Shown: positions 864-55,010 of the stretch, piece by piece
Layout: every line of letters begins with the position of its first letter
Position numbering within the stretch: the stretch's first letter is position 1
From: Sporomusa malonica
Lineage (GTDB): Bacteria; Bacillota; Negativicutes; Sporomusales; Sporomusaceae
Assembly (NCBI RefSeq): GCF_900176355.1
Contig: NZ_FWXI01000024.1
Span: forward strand, 1-64,000
Direction of reading: 5' to 3'
Length of the DNA stretch: 64,000 nucleotides
Notes under the pieces: model-generated
What the model saw: the letters and a program-made list of their open reading frames with translations, nothing else
The model's database searches: none
Told to the model about the DNA's origin: nothing
Position numbers and translations under genes: made by a program

Positions 864-997
864 TACGTTTCTTTACTATCTTTACTTAAACATTCCAGAC
901 AAACTGCATATTCTTTGTCACCTGTAACATAGCATGGCTTTAGCTGATCACAGAGAGTACATACTGCCAGTTTCATCTCATTATCTGTATTACTCAA
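863..997 (-). CDS. Small CxxC protein, 44 aa
   Basis: This short gene starts at TTG (997) behind a good ribosome site (AAAGGAGTGAT, 1005-1015). The product has two CxxC pairs (V-C-T-L-C near residue 13 and V-C-L-E-C near 32), as in a tiny zinc ribbon. No family recognised. Its stop codon touches a strong hairpin terminator, which supports expression. A metal-binding role is inferred only from cysteine spacing. Confidence 0.6.
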   Translation of the reverse strand: MSNTDNEMKLAVCTLCDQLKPCYVTGDKEYAVCLECLSKDSKET

Positions 998-1112
998 ATA
1001 TAATCACTCCTTTTGGTTAGAGTGCAAATGGAAAACCGATTTTATACGAGTAGTAATTGTAGGGATTTATTCCCTCTTGCCGAAGAATGGGGGAATCGAA
1101 GGGACATCTTCG

Positions 1113-2138
1113 TTATTTTTCGTGCTCCATATTAAATTTCTCCTGCAGCATAACAATTTTCTCGGTTGGAACGAGGTAATCTGTATACTGTCTGATTACG
1201 CTGCATTTTAAAAAATTATTTTGACTAATTGTTTCGCCTAGTATTTCCGCTCTTATTAGAATCTCAGCCTCATTAACGCCTAGTAAAGAGCGCATTCCCG
1301 TGGAACTGCTGAAGCGAGGGTTTATTTCGAAAATGTAAGGTTTACCGTTTAAGAGGCGCAATTGAAAGTTGCTCGGGCCGTAAGGTTTTAGAACCTGGGC
1401 CACTCTCTTACAATAATCTGTGATCTCTGTGAAATCACCTGAGTCCGCCGACATAGTCATGCCTTCTTTCAAGTATCTCTTTAAAGTTATCCCTGACAGA
1501 ATTTTGCCGTTTGCCCCGGTACAAATACCAGTCGTAAATTCACCGCAGTTATCTGGTAAATATTGCTGAAGAATGATGTCTTTTTTGTTTTCGAGCAGCG
1601 GGTGAAGATCTTCATATTGGTTAACAATGTACAAGCCCTGTGATCCCGCACCACTTCTTGGTTTAATTACGATGGGAAATTGCACGTCTTTAACAAATTC
1701 ATCGACTTGCTCCTGGTCTTCCGGATAGCGAATGGTAAGAGGAAAGTAAAAGTTATTTTCTTTTAAAAAGTTTACCGTAAGCCATTTATCATTACATAAA
1801 TTTAGTGTCTCAGGGAAATTAGTAAACACTTTAGCTCCGGTCTTTTTTTCAATATCAAGCTTATTACGGCTATAAAAAGCAAGCTCATGGGAGGAAGCAA
1901 CAAAAATGGCGTGTATACTTTCCTTTGCAATAATATTTAACAAGCTAGCTAAATAGAGTTCCTCCTGATGAGCGGGTGGCACGATATAGGCCTGGTGCGC
2001 GAGGTATAGGCCTAATGTACGGGCGCTCACATCACAGGCCACCAGTTTTAGGAGTAGATCTGATTTCAGTAAAGATTGAATGATGGCTACTCCGTAGAGA
2101 GACCCAGAACCCGATATCAATACATTTACTTTTTTCAC
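1113..2138 (-). CDS. ATP-grasp domain protein
   Basis: A 341-residue protein of the ATP-grasp superfamily, which forms amide or ester bonds through acyl-phosphate intermediates. It has an N-terminal Rossmann-like part (S-G-S-G-S at 10-14) like the CarB-type fold, then the ATP-binding core with I-V-I-K-P-R-S-G-A-G-S-Q-G near 155-168, and the metal-binding E-I-N-P-R-F near 270. Start is GTG, overlapping the stop of wbqC in the sequence GTGA. It is the last gene of the glycan cluster, so it probably ligates an amino acid or other acid onto a sugar or lipid. Substrate unknown. Confidence 0.8.
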   Translation of the reverse strand: MKKVNVLISGSGSLYGVAIIQSLLKSDLLLKLVACDVSARTLGLYLAHQAYIVPPAHQEELYLASLLNIIAKESIHAIFVASSHELAFYSRNKLDIEKKTGAKVFTNFPETLNLCNDKWLTVNFLKENNFYFPLTIRYPEDQEQVDEFVKDVQFPIVIKPRSGAGSQGLYIVNQYEDLHPLLENKKDIILQQYLPDNCGEFTTGICTGANGKILSGITLKRYLKEGMTMSADSGDFTEITDYCKRVAQVLKPYGPSNFQLRLLNGKPYIFEINPRFSSSTGMRSLLGVNEAEILIRAEILGETISQNNFLKCSVIRQYTDYLVPTEKIVMLQEKFNMEHEK

Positions 2139-2821
2139 ATGATCACCTGCTTGGTAAGATAGTCCTTGCTATTGGGACCACAATTAAAAATCAAATCCAC
2201 TGCCGACAAATTAGGCATGAAGTCTCCCCACACCTGTGAGTAAACAGGATGTTCAAACTCCTGGTAAACCAGCCGAATGTTGTTTCTTGCAAATGCCGCC
2301 TCGTCATTATAGGCTCGGGCTCCGTTTCCGGAGAGGTAGATATCGGCTTTGCATTGTTTGCATAGGCTAATGATACGTTCCCCTTTGTTTCCTTCAATTC
2401 CTGAAATTTCGGAAGCGCGTATCATTGGCGTCTTTATTTCTAAAATGTCGCGAATAACATGGATCAACCGCAGGTTCAGGTCGGCCAGAAGTTCCCCCGG
2501 ATTTTCATAAATGGGGGAAAATAAGTTTTTGTATTGCTGCCAAAAGGGAGAGCGTGCATAGCAAGTTTGTAATGAACCCCAGTGGTTTACATGCCACGGG
2601 AAATCATTTTGAAGGGGCGCATCCTTAATCAAATTCTTTTTTCTACTTATCTGTACGCTTAGTAATCGCTCTCCCTCCGGACCCTTAATTTTATTTTTTT
2701 TAGTAACTTCCCTTCTCGAGAGAAGGACGTCATCCATAATGATAAACAAATCACAGGACATCATTTTGTGAAAGTATCCCAACCATGGCAGGTAATTCGG
2801 TTGATGGCCGCTAATAATCAC
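2135..2821 (-). CDS. WbqC family protein
   Basis: WbqC-like proteins occur in O-antigen and surface sugar clusters, probably acting in late steps of amino-sugar assembly such as acyl or amino acid transfer. The N-terminus carries the family signature G-H-Q-P-N-Y-L-P-W-L-G-Y-F-H-K. The start was set at GTG 2821, 7 nt after GAGGGGG. A TTG two codons earlier lies too close to the same ribosome site. It overlaps the following ATP-grasp gene by 4 nt and sits 12 nt after the aminotransferase gene, so translation is probably coupled. The exact reaction is not established for this family. Confidence 0.85.
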   Translation of the reverse strand: MIISGHQPNYLPWLGYFHKMMSCDLFIIMDDVLLSRREVTKKNKIKGPEGERLLSVQISRKKNLIKDAPLQNDFPWHVNHWGSLQTCYARSPFWQQYKNLFSPIYENPGELLADLNLRLIHVIRDILEIKTPMIRASEISGIEGNKGERIISLCKQCKADIYLSGNGARAYNDEAAFARNNIRLVYQEFEHPVYSQVWGDFMPNLSAVDLIFNCGPNSKDYLTKQVIM

Positions 2822-2833
2822 GTACAATCCCCC

Positions 2834-3916
2834 TCAGCGGTAATTATTAATTACTTCTACAATGGTTGTTAAGTCGTTCCGGGAAAGGGCCGGGTGAACC
2901 GGTATTGAAACACAGCTAGCAGACAAATCTTCTGCTATCGGCCAGGTACTGGAGCAGGTCGCCATATTTTCATATGCGGGCTGAGCCGGTATTATTAACG
3001 GGTAGTGAATGCCATAGCCGATACCGTTGGCATCCAGGTAGGCCGTGAAAGCGTCTCTGTTTTTTACTTTTAAGGTATATTGATGATAAACATGGCTTCG
3101 ACCTGGGGGTGACACCGGTTTTTGGATACAAGGATTTACAATGTGGTCATTGTAGAATTTTGCGTTCTCTATTCTTTTCTGGTTAAATAGATCTAATTTT
3201 TTTAGCTGCTCTAAACCAATAGCTGCATGAATGTTAGTCATCCGATAGTTATATCCCACCATTTCATGGTAGTAGCGCTGGCGCTGCCCCTGGTTGACCA
3301 GTATTCTTACTTTTTCTTCGATCATTGGATCATCGGTTAATACCATGCCGCCTTCTCCGGCGGTTATATTTTTGGTGGGGTAAAAACTAAAGGCCGAAGC
3401 AGTGCCGAAGGTACCGACCTTTTGATCCCGGTAAGTAGCTCCGTGTGCCTGGGCACAATCTTCCAGGATGATGAGATTGTTTTTTTTCGCAATTTCTTGA
3501 ATTGCATCCATATCTGCCGGTAACCCAAAAAGATGAACTATGAGCACAGCTTTGGCTTCTGGGTGGTCTTTCACAGCAGTATTTAATGCGGAGGGCGAAA
3601 GATTATACGTTACCGGGTCGATATCAGCAAAAATCGGGGTAGCCCCGGTGTATAGAATTGCATTAGCCGTAGCTATAAACGAGTAGGGAGTAGTTATGAC
3701 CTTATCTCCGGCACCGATACCCAGGGCCTGCAGGATTACGTGTAGTGCGGTCGTACCAGAGGAGGTAGCGATGGCATACTGGGAATCGTGATGCCATTTA
3801 AACTCATCTTCAAACTCCTGAACATAGCTGCCTGCAGCCAACATGCCGCTGCGCAAAACTTCTATTACGCGGTCTTCCTCTTCTTTACCTAACAGGGGTT
3901 TGGCGTGGGGAATCAT
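2834..3916 (-). CDS. DegT/DnrJ/EryC1/StrS sugar aminotransferase
   Basis: A PLP-dependent aminotransferase of 360 residues that would convert a nucleotide keto-sugar to an amino-sugar. Key residues are visible: D153 in L-E-D-C-A-Q-A-H-G, the PLP lysine K182 in Y-P-T-K-N, and the G-E-G-G motif just after it. The family includes ArnB, PglE and the spore-coat enzyme SpsC. Its ATG and ribosome site (AGGAGGATTTGTTCC) lie inside the 3' end of the LpxC-like gene, giving a 32-nt overlap. With the MocA-type dehydrogenase of the same cluster it would supply an amino-sugar precursor. Confidence 0.92.
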   Translation of the reverse strand: MIPHAKPLLGKEEEDRVIEVLRSGMLAAGSYVQEFEDEFKWHHDSQYAIATSSGTTALHVILQALGIGAGDKVITTPYSFIATANAILYTGATPIFADIDPVTYNLSPSALNTAVKDHPEAKAVLIVHLFGLPADMDAIQEIAKKNNLIILEDCAQAHGATYRDQKVGTFGTASAFSFYPTKNITAGEGGMVLTDDPMIEEKVRILVNQGQRQRYYHEMVGYNYRMTNIHAAIGLEQLKKLDLFNQKRIENAKFYNDHIVNPCIQKPVSPPGRSHVYHQYTLKVKNRDAFTAYLDANGIGYGIHYPLIIPAQPAYENMATCSSTWPIAEDLSASCVSIPVHPALSRNDLTTIVEVINNYR

Positions 3917-11809: not shown

Positions 11810-12058
11810 ATGAAATCAACTGGTATTGTTAGAAGGGTGGACGAGCTCGGCAGAGTGGTAATACCTATCGAATTGCGCCGTACCTTTGGCATCGAAGAAA
11901 AAGATGGCCTTGAAATATATACCGATAATGATCGAATCATTTTGCGGAAACATGAGCCTGCTTGTGTGTTCTGTGGAAGTGCTGATGAGGTAACTAGCTT
12001 CAAGGGAAAAAATGTTTGTAAAGAATGTCTTTCGGTCATGAGTCAAAAAGCAGTCTAA
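11810..12058 (+). CDS. AbrB/SpoVT-type regulator with C-terminal zinc ribbon
   Basis: A transition-state regulator of 82 residues. Residues 1-45 are the AbrB DNA-binding swapped-hairpin domain (S-T-G-I-V-R-R-V-D-E-L-G-R-V-V-I-P near the N-terminus). Residues 50-75 carry C-V-F-C and C-K-E-C, a zinc ribbon found in many clostridial AbrB homologues in place of the Bacillus C-terminal domain. It would bind AT-rich promoter DNA as a multimer and control post-exponential genes. AAAGGAG precedes the ATG and a terminator follows. Confidence 0.92.
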   Translation: MKSTGIVRRVDELGRVVIPIELRRTFGIEEKDGLEIYTDNDRIILRKHEPACVFCGSADEVTSFKGKNVCKECLSVMSQKAV

Positions 12059-12067
12059 TGGGTATGT

Positions 12068-12099
12068 AAAATCGCCATCCTTCGGGGTGGCGATTTTTT
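12068..12099. terminator. Terminator of the AbrB-like gene, probably bidirectional
   Basis: AAATCGCCA/TGGCGATTT with a TTCG-centred apex and T6 on the plus strand. On the minus strand it directly follows a copy of the 90-nt dispersed element. Confidence 0.85.
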
Positions 12100-12100
12100 A

Positions 12101-12190
12101 TCCTGTTCGAAAGTAGAACTTTCCGTCTGGACAAAGGGCAGCATCGACTTCCGTTGTCGCCAAACGCTCGGCGCAAGCCGTGCTTTTTTT
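12101..12190 (-). repeat. Dispersed 90-nt structured element, copy A
   Basis: Read on the minus strand this is the same element as at 44368-44457 and 54779-54868, with scattered substitutions that mostly preserve the hairpins: a GCC...GGC hairpin, the block GGAAGTCGATG, the segment CCAGACGG, a GAAAGT-TCT-ACTTTC hairpin, and a final ACAGGA. A terminator hairpin lies immediately beyond ACAGGA (12068-12099). On the plus strand the far end reads GC-T-CGGC-GCAA-GCCG-T-GC then T7, so this copy could also terminate plus-strand transcripts. Confidence 0.75.
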
Positions 12191-12320
12191 ATTTCCAAAG
12201 TTATCTAAGGAAATTCTAAAAATTGCAGGTTATAATTCTAAATATAGACTACAAAAATTCATAGAAAGGCAATGCCTCTCTATTTATATATAGTCTCCCC
12301 TATTATTAACCCTTTTTGTA

Positions 12321-17938: not shown

Positions 17939-18012
17939 ACTGCAAATATAGTGAAGCATTTGAAGGCACATTCTATGTTATACAGAGTGTATTGTATAAA
18001 GAGGTGGTAACA

Positions 18013-18393
18013 GTGCGCGTGTTAGTAGTTGACGATTCCAAAATCAGCCGGGAGTTGATTATGTCTTATTTGCGTGAGATCGGTGTGGACAAGATTGACG
18101 AAGCTGCAGACGGATTTGAGGCAATAAGCAGGATTAAAAAACTACCGCCGGATACCAGGTATGAAGTGATTACGCTCGATGTTGTTATGCCCAGGAAAGA
18201 TGGTCTGGAAGCCTTGAAGGATATTAAAATACTGTCACCCAAGTCCAAAATTATTATATGCAGTTCCAATCGTGATACCCATTCGGTAACAGTAGCGATG
18301 GGTTTTGGTGTTGATGGATATGTTCTAAAACCATTCACTAAGCAAAAACTGCTAGACGCCCTGTGGCGAAGCTTAAAGATTGAAAACAAATAG
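18013..18393 (+). CDS. CheY-like single-domain response regulator
   Basis: A 126-residue receiver domain without an output domain. The acidic pocket is V-V-D-D-S-K near the N-terminus, the phospho-acceptor aspartate lies in T-L-D-V-V-M-P near residue 56, and the conserved lysine is in L-K-P-F near 107. Start is GTG 18013, 7 nt after GAGGTGG; the open frame upstream lacks a ribosome site. Chemotaxis-type output (CheY) is likely given several MCPs in the window, but no che genes are adjacent. Confidence 0.9.
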   Translation: MRVLVVDDSKISRELIMSYLREIGVDKIDEAADGFEAISRIKKLPPDTRYEVITLDVVMPRKDGLEALKDIKILSPKSKIIICSSNRDTHSVTVAMGFGVDGYVLKPFTKQKLLDALWRSLKIENK

Positions 18394-18398
18394 ATGTG

Positions 18399-18430
18399 GC
18401 CGTCTGTCCTTCGGGATGGACGGCTTTTAT
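18399..18430 (+). terminator. Terminator of the CheY-like gene
   Basis: GCCGTC and TCC pair with GGA and GACGGC around a TTCG loop, then TTTTATT. Confidence 0.8.
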
Positions 18431-18445
18431 TATGTAAGTACTAAT

Positions 18446-18470
18446 TGGAAAGTTATACTTTCTTACAGGA
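18446..18470 (+). repeat. Partial copy (3' end) of the 90-nt dispersed element, copy D
   Basis: The terminal 24 nt of the element, GGAAAG-TTATA-CTTTC hairpin plus TTACAGGA, are identical to copies B and C; the upstream two thirds are absent. A terminator hairpin follows within 4 nt, as in the other copies. Confidence 0.7.
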
Positions 18471-44087: not shown

Positions 44088-44363
44088 ATGGTCTGGTTAA
44101 TTCGAGCAGGAGCATACCTTTTTAGCGGCTTAACAGTATGGCAGTTTATTCAGGGAGTTGGGACACCAGAGGCAGTAACCATGTCCCACCACCTGGCACT
44201 TGATCAGCCCCATGGGATGGTGTTTGGTGTATGTGCCGGTTTTAGTGCATATACTGGTCTGGATGTTACGCTAATCCGCTTGGCCTGGGCATTGTCGGTG
44301 CTATACCATGGGGCAGGGATTGCTTTGTACATTTTGGCATTCCTCATCATGCCTGTTGCATAG
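44088..44363 (+). CDS. PspC domain protein, 91 aa
   Basis: A small membrane protein with the PspC core V-F-G-V-C-A-G-F-S-A-Y-T-G-L-D-V-T-L-I-R-L-A-W followed by a hydrophobic helix (L-Y-I-L-A-F-L-I-M-P). PspC proteins are linked to the envelope stress response. The N-terminal 40 residues add one more hydrophobic segment. A copy of the 90-nt element begins 4 nt after the stop. Confidence 0.82.
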   Translation: MVWLIRAGAYLFSGLTVWQFIQGVGTPEAVTMSHHLALDQPHGMVFGVCAGFSAYTGLDVTLIRLAWALSVLYHGAGIALYILAFLIMPVA

Positions 44364-44367
44364 TGTA

Positions 44368-44457
44368 TAAAGAAAACACGGCTTGCGCCAAGCCTTTGGC
44401 GACGGCGGAAGTCGATGTTGCCCTTATCCAGACGGAAAGTTATACTTTCTTACAGGA
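44368..44457 (+). repeat. Dispersed 90-nt structured element, copy B
   Basis: Differs from copy C (54779-54868) at only 3 of 90 positions. It begins TAAAGAAAACACGGCTTG, right after the PspC gene stop, and ends TACAGGA. Predicted parts: a hairpin in CGCCAA-GCCT-TTGGCG that competes with GGCTT/AAGCC, a GTC...GAC pairing, and GAAAGT-TAT-ACTTTC. A terminator hairpin follows 9 nt later. Confidence 0.8.
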
Positions 44458-44466
44458 GAATAGTAG

Positions 44467-44501
44467 ATTCGGTAGGCTTTCAGGCCTGCCGAATTTTTTT
44501 T
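44467..44501 (+). terminator. Terminator after copy B of the element
   Basis: ATTCGG-T-AGGC pairs with GCCT-G-CCGAAT, then T8. Confidence 0.9.
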
Positions 44502-54005: not shown

Positions 54006-54148
54006 AATACCCCCCTATATTTCTTGGTATATTATATTGGCAATGAGCGTAAAAGGTGAGTTATAAAAAACAAAATAAAAAGAGGAAATCTAATTATCTA
54101 GGAAGAATTATCCATAATATCGTTAATCTATGTTGTAGGAGGGGTATT

Positions 54149-54781
54149 ATGTCAGATCAAAAGCCTGATTTTAAAGAGCTTGCTGAAGCAAGGCGCTCGG
54201 TTAATTTTTTTGATCCTGAAAAGCCGCTGGATGACCTGACGTTAAAACAGATTATTAATCTCGCAGTGCTTGCGCCGTCTTGTTTTAATGTCCAGCCATG
54301 GCAGATTCTAGCTGTAAAATCAAAAGAAAAACGTGAAGAGATCTACAATACTGCCTGTAAGCAGCCCAAGATAGTCGAGGCACCAGTAGTCTTAGCCGTT
54401 ATTGGTAACAAAAATGGCTATAGGCGGGACAATCCTATTTGGGATGAAAAAATTAAGCTAGGTTATGCTACACCAGAGGCAGTAGAAGGCTCAGTAAGCT
54501 ATGCTGATACCGTATTGTTTCCTGAAAATGAGCAAAAAGTGGCGTTTGCCGCCAGTAACAGTGCTCTGCTTGCCATGAGTATTATGTATGCGGCTAAGTA
54601 CTATGGAGTTGATTCTCATCCCATGATTGGCTTTGATGAGCCAAAGCTGCGGGCCTTTTTCGGGTTGCCGGATAACCAGTTGATTACCATGCTGATCTGC
54701 CTCGGATATTTTGACCAGAGCAAATCTCTCTACCCCAGGCAGAAGCGTTATACCTATGACCAGATTGTAAAAGAATTCTAA
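54149..54781 (+). CDS. Nitroreductase family protein
   Basis: A 210-residue FMN-dependent oxidoreductase: A-R-R-S-V-N-F-F at about 14-21 (FMN phosphate-binding Arg-Arg-Ser), A-P-S-C-F-N-V-Q-P-W near 45, and a C-terminal Y-P-R-Q-K-R segment. The start at ATG 54149 follows TAGGAGGGGTATT. The stop codon TAA is itself the first 3 nt of copy C of the 90-nt element. Confidence 0.9.
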   Translation: MSDQKPDFKELAEARRSVNFFDPEKPLDDLTLKQIINLAVLAPSCFNVQPWQILAVKSKEKREEIYNTACKQPKIVEAPVVLAVIGNKNGYRRDNPIWDEKIKLGYATPEAVEGSVSYADTVLFPENEQKVAFAASNSALLAMSIMYAAKYYGVDSHPMIGFDEPKLRAFFGLPDNQLITMLICLGYFDQSKSLYPRQKRYTYDQIVKEF

Positions 54782-54868
54782 AGAAAACACGGCTTGTGCC
54801 GAGCCTTTGGCGACAGCGGAAGTCGATGTTGCCCTTATCCAGACGGAAAGTTATACTTTCTTACAGGA
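54779..54868 (+). repeat. Dispersed 90-nt structured element, copy C
   Basis: 87 of 90 positions identical to copy B. Substitutions fall mainly in hairpin parts (GCGCCA to GTGCCG). It begins with the nitroreductase stop codon and ends TACAGGA; a terminator stem starts 7 nt later. Confidence 0.8.
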
Positions 54869-54874
54869 TAAAGA

Positions 54875-54907
54875 AAAGGACCTCCGTTTGTGGCTCGGAG
54901 GTCCTTT
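54875..54907 (+). terminator. Terminator after copy C of the element
   Basis: AAAGGACCTCCG/CGGAGGTCCTTT, 12-bp perfect stem, loop TTTGTGGCT. Confidence 0.85.
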
Positions 54908-55010
54908 GGTCTACCAGAATTTATAACGCAATTCTGTTGACATAAGAACGACTAAGGCTTCTGCCGGCGTCCTGAAGGACTTGGCACAAGCCAAGTCTTT
55001 TCTTATGATT

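Follow-up and report, generated by a model that had tools for sequence, protein, structure and literature searches.

The window, that is, the whole 64,000-nt stretch of Sporomusa malonica DNA analysed here, carries three copies of a structured 90-nt unit, together with two more distant relatives and the hairpins lying beside them (Table 1). The two plus-strand copies differ at three positions (87/90 identical), as the initial annotation had recorded; the diverged minus-strand copy that it described is likewise present, but with one inserted base it spans 91 nt and ends at 12191 instead of 12190. Two related copies, at 54909-55004 on the minus strand and at 18384-18470, were absent from that annotation.

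Table 1 Copies of the element, its relatives and adjoining hairpins in the window
Feature	Positions	Strand	Support
A-type element (the copy under study)	54779-54868	+	CM 113 bits
A-type element	44368-44457	+	CM 112.6 bits
Diverged A-type element	12101-12191	-	CM 89 bits; A9-T51 replaced by G-C
B-type element, related subfamily with the same two-hairpin plan	54909-55004	-	CM 36.2 bits, E 5.8e-7; nhmmer
Chimeric relative	18384-18470	+	CM only 22 bits, E 0.004
Bidirectional terminator hairpin, common to the A copy (plus) and the B copy (minus)	54875-54907		Read from sequence
Terminator hairpin with T-run after the 44368 copy	44467-44501	+	Read from sequence
Hairpin beside the 12101 copy	12068-12097		Read from sequence

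The copies sit tightly against genes. The first three bases of the copy under study (54779-54781) are the stop codon of a nitroreductase-family gene (54056-54781), and distances of -3 to 1 nt suggest that the element probably supplies the stop codon of the upstream gene at several other copies too. The 44368 copy begins 4 nt past the stop of a PspC-domain gene (44088-44363), and the 12101 copy lies behind the terminator of a plus-strand gene (11810-12058, Pfam MazE_antitoxin domain) to which it is antisense; the hairpin between them ends, on the plus strand, in a T-run behind that gene. The B-type copy adjoins the terminator at 54875-54907 from the side opposite to the A copy, and the same arrangement, one bidirectional terminator with opposite-strand elements on each side, is seen both at window positions 54779-55004 and at locus L155. 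The chimera overlaps the 3' end of a response-regulator gene (17992-18393) and joins a different first hairpin and body to the same 3' hairpin, GAAAGTTATACTTTCTTACAGGA, beyond which lies a terminator. The sequence ACAGGA ends all three window copies, but the constancy claimed for it does not extend to the genome, where ACAGGG, ATCAGGA and other variants occur.

To characterize the architecture of the unit, we compared copies across families. Its layout comprises a 5' terminus, TAAAGAAAAC, a long imperfect hairpin, the segment CTTAT and a 3' terminal hairpin. This predicted two-hairpin fold is well supported: 26/30 pairs change on both sides and 94.0% of cells are paired in a 50-row cross-family alignment (47 distinct rows), against shuffle means of 13.0 pairs and 80.8% of cells and 34-45% pairing in slid controls, with the caveat that the alignment leans towards the model, its rows having been fitted to it. 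Covariation, a check named in the initial annotation, is therefore present. Hairpin 2 keeps its pairing between families in which its sequence is very different, the foot pairs joining the element terminus to the ATAAG segment are 92.1% paired with 3/3 two-sided changes, and within the genus A9-T51 becomes G9-C51 in 7/48 copies read.

Several subfamilies share this architecture in whole or in part. B-type elements (TAAGAAAAGACTTGGCTTGTGCC..GGTAGAC) follow the same plan as A-type elements, and C-type elements (L186, L208) carry a different middle hairpin. Minimal copies of about 27-37 nt, made up of a TAAAG terminus and the 3' hairpin, lie at L207 (about 2764-2800), at L209 (about 2877-2903) and on the minus strand of L155 (about 1661). 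The exact 3' hairpin occurs at 95 places in this genome (G000), six of which are not A-type; being common to A-type, B-type, C-type, minimal and chimeric copies here, it is what would be expected of a terminus recognised in trans. Length also varies, with eight G000 places of 106-109 nt, including the copy L002:174-282 with 19 extra bases in hairpin 1, and in a Desulfosporosinus copy (L258:2394-2482) the first hairpin pairs almost perfectly as far as the terminus (TAAAGAAAACCC..GGGTTTTCTTTA). A coding role was considered and rejected: the unit does have one open frame, yet it is shifted in the many copies that measure 87-89 nt. Only one copy, L081:1501-1590 (A-type), is clearly in frame in a real gene, an N-acetylmuramoyl-L-alanine amidase gene (ORF 992-3022, Amidase_3 and DUF5050), to which the insertion adds about 30 residues before the Amidase_3 domain.

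A covariance model (CM) built from 32 copies was searched against the source genome (5.19 Mb, 66 contigs) and relatives; the initial annotation had proposed such a search with a model of the three window copies. At least 150 copies were found in the genome itself, where 150/150 scored candidates match the model (weakest E 4e-10; 150 of 2479 candidates scored). A 22-nt core allowing up to 3 mismatches gave 164 matches against 0 for the reversed control, and BLAST gave at least 43 among the matches listed (40 of 180 candidates scored). The element is present in 9/9 genomes of the genus and 12/12 genomes of the family examined (4 genera), the source genome counted in both, and under stricter filters in 36/300 genomes and 21/97 genera of the class. 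An exact pattern for a sister subfamily matched 27 stretches in named records, including Desulfosporosinus, Peptococcaceae CEB3, a Syntrophomonas MAG, Sporomusaceae UBA7701 and a Negativicutes MAG; NCBI taxonomy places Sporomusaceae in Negativicutes, and Desulfosporosinus and Syntrophomonas in Clostridia. The earlier statement that no Rfam family fits stands: a scan of the whole window at gathering scores returned one tRNA only and no match for the element, and a permissive scan of 54600-55000 returned chance-level matches only. What emerges is a large repeat superfamily that Rfam does not match, present in at least 150 copies in a single genome and with relatives in both Negativicutes and Clostridia.

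Next, we asked where copies land. The insertion target reads A^YAAARAAA (A^TARAAA-like), which on the other strand places the insertion just 3' of TTTTYTTTR. Among 150 distinct copies, 75% have A at position -1 and 75% have T or C at +1, and A accounts for 56-87% at positions +2 to +8. An A-tract (at least 5 A in 8) is the commonest feature after copies, following 125/150 of them compared with 10-14/150 random places and 16/150 on the other side. In many cases the target A-tract either forms the T-tract side of an intrinsic terminator or is an A-rich run that precedes a Shine-Dalgarno sequence. A strong hairpin follows 89/150 copies, against 19-24/150 random places and 28-38 of 113-122 random A^YAAAAA sites. 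The flanks of the 150 copies divide into hairpin without T-run (59), hairpin with T-run (26), Shine-Dalgarno sequence with start (16), tandem element (6) and other (43); some hairpins without a T-run are opposite-strand terminators whose T-tract faces the element, as at the 12101 copy. The initial annotation had held that an intrinsic terminator always follows. A different hairpin does follow each of the three window copies, but across the genome a sense-strand terminator starts within 20 nt of only 46/150 copies, against 1-6 of about 150 controls (under a separate terminator definition). The terminator rule is better read as a by-product of the A-tract target, with a further preference for hairpins, and the terminators differ between copies because they belong to the target sites and not to the element.

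Copies begin with the target motif, although identity of target and terminus is true for the TAAAG-type and not for the ATTAG-type. Since the element starts with its own target motif, new copies can insert before old ones and produce head-to-tail arrays, and the tandems seen are A-A, A-B, B-A and A-C. Two of these pairs provide reciprocal empty sites that show clean insertion. At L186 of G000, an A+C pair stands between TTTA and TAAATGCGGGAGG, and the counterpart in G008 reads ATTAGCATGCGGGAGG; at L232 of G008, an A+B pair stands between GTATTTG and TAAAAAAGGAGG, and the counterpart in G000 reads GTATTTATAGAAAAAGGAGG. Between junctions and empty sites there is a length difference of one base and there are a few substitutions, with no longer duplication or loss; given this divergence of the species, the junctions are certain to no better than about 1 nt. 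No target-site duplication (TSD) was detected at these junctions, where one common A remains compatible with the data; a TA duplication is unlikely, as the first base of the element is T but only 45% of copies have T at +1.

Turnover between species is high. Of 36 loci of the two sister species G007 and G008, about 3 have their site in common with one of the 150 G000 copies (L222/L155, L239/L154 and, doubtfully, L213/L031) on visual inspection of the gene matches, and it is these few that speak against mobility. The nearest neighbour of a copy lies in the same genome at a rate of 0.95 in G000, 0.51 in G007 and 0.39 in G008, against 0.73, 0.08 and 0.10 when shuffled; in four genomes represented by only two or three copies the rate is 0 to 0.5, and it reaches 1.0 for the three copies of G011. 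Copies of G011 differ from those of G000 by 9.8 positions, and G000 copies differ among themselves by 10.1. Gene context was read from crude longest open frames, leaving out the 16/150 copies inside frames: of the remaining 134, 51 lie between two antisense genes, 31 between convergent, 26 between two sense and 21 between divergent genes, with a neighbour unknown for 5, and control gaps longer than 40 nt at the same loci gave 45 antisense, 22 convergent, 32 sense and 39 divergent. Copies thus favour convergent gaps, and the antisense excess is only little above local background; with 45 antisense against 32 sense among control gaps, the 51 against 26 among copies makes orientation alone weak evidence.

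With the copies, fold, target, empty sites and arrays in hand, the class of element is well supported, and we consider it very probable that the unit is a mobile, non-autonomous, two-hairpin element. A structured REP-like repeat, the third option of the initial annotation, is favoured by copy number, turnover and empty sites, and its dismissal of a classical riboswitch holds. We further propose, at a probability of roughly 0.5, that this high-copy REP/PATE-like element is moved in trans as single-stranded DNA, probably by a Y1 (HUH) transposase of the IS200/IS605/TnpAREP type. The enzyme is the conditional part of this reading, with about even odds for single-strand movement by a Y1 protein, and it meets contrary evidence. 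On the bottom strand, TAAAG-type copies show the target TTTTYTTTR before the element and the terminus TTTTCTTTA at its end, an order less clear for the ATTAG-type. The full bottom-strand series would run target motif, cleavage point, terminal hairpin, guide-like ATAAG, second hairpin, terminal TTTTCTTTA and cleavage point, which would reproduce the geometry of IS200/IS605 ends. As outlined in PMC6006769 and PMC7290912, these insertion sequences have a guide on the 5' side of the hairpin foot, insert 3' of a short target without producing a TSD and prefer the lagging strand. The equality of target and terminus, the lack of duplication, the terminal hairpins, the ATAAG-terminus pairing and the arrays all fit the ends so outlined (PMC6006769, PMC7290912). 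Terminator hairpins would then follow copies because the A- and T-tracts beside terminators are landing sites of little harm.

Replication strand and pairing statistics bear on this proposal with mixed results. Among the copies listed for G007, G008, G011 and G004, 62/82 have the bottom strand on the lagging-strand template (against the fork; p 4e-6), a bias confounded with terminator orientation. The 82 comprise 29, 29, 14 and 10 of the 81, 55, 24 and 38 copies known from the CM in these genomes, respectively; replichores were set from the location of dnaA and from termini given by the GC skew of loci (G007, G008) or by half the chromosome, leaving out two copies on the second contig of G008. 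T-tract motifs in 36 loci of G007 and G008 are balanced (45-52%), but terminators may not be, and a division of 42 matches by flank (15/10 hairpin-flanked, 9/5 other) is too small to separate the two biases. One survey of IS605 elements saw no strand preference in 10/22 (PMC7290912). Folding of the bottom strand predicts that G-T should not be favoured over A-C on the top strand; the counts are 49 versus 25 by cells but 17 versus 16 by positions, and 184 versus 53 in 135 distinct G000 copies, 131 of the 184 coming from two pairs, so that the excess in cells leans slightly against the Y1 model.

A search for the partner enzyme gave a similarly divided picture. Y1 genes occur in 20/25 carrier genomes tested (of 36 carriers), including all 9 of the genus and G011, and a Pfam Y1 match is absent in 5/25 (G009, G060, G098, G109 and G134, with G098 96% complete). 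No A-type element lies within about 1.5 kb at the ten Y1 loci of this genome, and tblastn with six of its own Y1 proteins (1e-4, at which a divergent Y1 could be missed) found no Y1 gene near copies in 268 other loci. Several of the ten Y1 genes or fragments (L071-L080) are flanked by other repeats (such as ggggtcaggcttgagttat and ggggacggttcttttgaca), which resemble separate REP systems. Close linkage was seen only in G002, where an ATTAG-type copy (L279:2819-2910; G002:C1:524318-524409) sits within a cluster of three TnpAREP-like Y1 genes or fragments, about 180 nt past a truncated Y1 gene and about 600 nt ahead of an intact one; the case may be coincidence or a first hint of a partner. At greater distance from a Y1 gene are one copy of G000 (about 1.7 kb) and one of G007 (about 4 kb). 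Together these cases soften "no linked Y1" to "not consistently linked" and leave our estimate where it was. In this genome, the 95 exact 3'-hairpin places and five 5'-half places yielded no autonomous copy and no TnpA-encoding IS that has these ends: the six 3'-hairpin places that are not A-type proved to be other subfamilies or decayed or minimal copies with no gene between the ends, and the five 5'-half places were truncated or variant.

The same gaps in the Y1 record feed an unlikely though coherent alternative, namely that the element is mobilised by some other unlinked enzyme, either an undescribed single-strand recombinase or a SINE-like reverse transcription of top-strand element RNA primed by the 3'-OH of a nicked T-tract. 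Besides the carriers that have no Pfam Y1 match and the inconsistent linkage, the top-strand excess of G-T cells argues for it; the conserved terminal hairpins, in contrast, resemble ends recognised by protein, and the lack of a TSD and of an A-tail of the element's own, the A-tract being target, also weighs against it. A degenerate or ORF-less group IIC intron would use the same type of target, terminator motifs (PMC4424553), yet the unit has only 90 nt and no Rfam intron match, and the maturase domain PF08388 is absent in 13/25 carriers, among them G016 and G011 (one contig, 24 copies). This absence argues strongly against a group II intron, which we regard as largely refuted and scarcely credible.

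Explanations that dispense with mobility account for less of the data. Were the unit a functional RNA, whether an sRNA family, a 3'UTR stabiliser or a terminator companion under selection on top-strand RNA, the very strong covariation, the enrichment of sense terminators, the hairpin after all three window copies and the G-T lean by cells would be readily understood. We nevertheless judge this improbable: few sites are common to species, empty sites are clean, 16/150 insertions lie before Shine-Dalgarno sites and one keeps the reading frame within a protein, and many copies run antisense to the gene at whose terminator they sit, as at 12101-12191. The rarity of shared loci and this antisense placement likewise tell against the small-RNA family or processed 3'UTR element offered by the initial annotation. 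The element is not a conserved small-RNA gene or sRNA family, although individual copies may have been co-opted. More improbable still is purely passive spread of the repeat, through gene conversion or through slippage of replication at A-tracts, with no dedicated enzyme; A^YAAARAAA homology at both junctions and the decayed and truncated copies are compatible with it, but ends are full-length at most of 150 unrelated sites (123/150 match model positions 1-90), copies cluster by species and the terminal hairpins are conserved across families.

The fold of the favoured mobile element more likely serves mobility than gene regulation. Because that fold covaries strongly, copies may be mistaken for sRNAs or 3'UTR regulators. 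A wider and tentative proposal, which we rate as somewhat doubtful, is that these repeats form an undescribed phylum-wide class of single-strand mobile elements with a conserved two-hairpin fold, landing at terminator T-tracts and at A-tracts before ribosome-binding sites, and served by an enzyme acting in trans, distinct both from a linked TnpAREP and from the reverse transcriptase of a group II intron. "Undescribed" refers to published titles and the opening parts of abstracts, in which we recognised no description of the element. Knowing the enzyme would make it possible to test whether REP-like spread in Firmicutes is due to single-strand transposition.

Among known systems, REP/REPIN sequences mobilised by TnpAREP (RAYT) come closest, being extragenic, high-copy, palindromic, thought to be non-autonomous and moved by a Y1 HUH protein; the element is likewise a high-copy extragenic palindromic repeat, with its copies (at least 150) mostly at A-tracts between genes. 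It differs in having 90 nt and two unlike hairpins, where REPs have 21-65 nt, and in that its copies are not beside the Y1 genes of their own genome, which lie among other short repeats. Canonical REPs carry a GT[AG]G tetranucleotide at the hairpin foot, with atypical feet also reported (PMC6006769); no GTAG or GTGG foot appears in the element alignments, and the bottom-strand foot of hairpin 1 is ATAAG-GGC. Some TnpAREP-like subclasses have atypical repeats (PMC6006769), considered here by description only. PATEs, the ends-only derivatives of IS200/IS605, share the two hairpins, the reduction to ends, the absence of a TSD, insertion beside a short target and a guide-like stretch at the hairpin foot (here a candidate guide), and they differ in a target of 4-5 nt instead of an 8-9-nt T-tract and in the element's copy number; no full-length IS with the element's ends was found in this genome. 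A classical MITE was rejected, as the termini TAAAG.. and ..CAGGA are not inverted repeats and no TSD was seen. Integron attC core sites do not seem to fit the element ends. Among small palindromic elements such as the Rickettsia palindromic elements, the likeness is one copy in frame inside a protein gene, and the differences are a mainly intergenic location and ends that are not inverted repeats. Group IIC introns share insertion immediately behind intrinsic terminators and differ from the element, which is too short, has no intron RNA and occurs in many genomes devoid of PF08388; it would represent a second route, besides group IIC introns, by which a mobile element comes to lie behind terminators, and one with a directly testable target rule.
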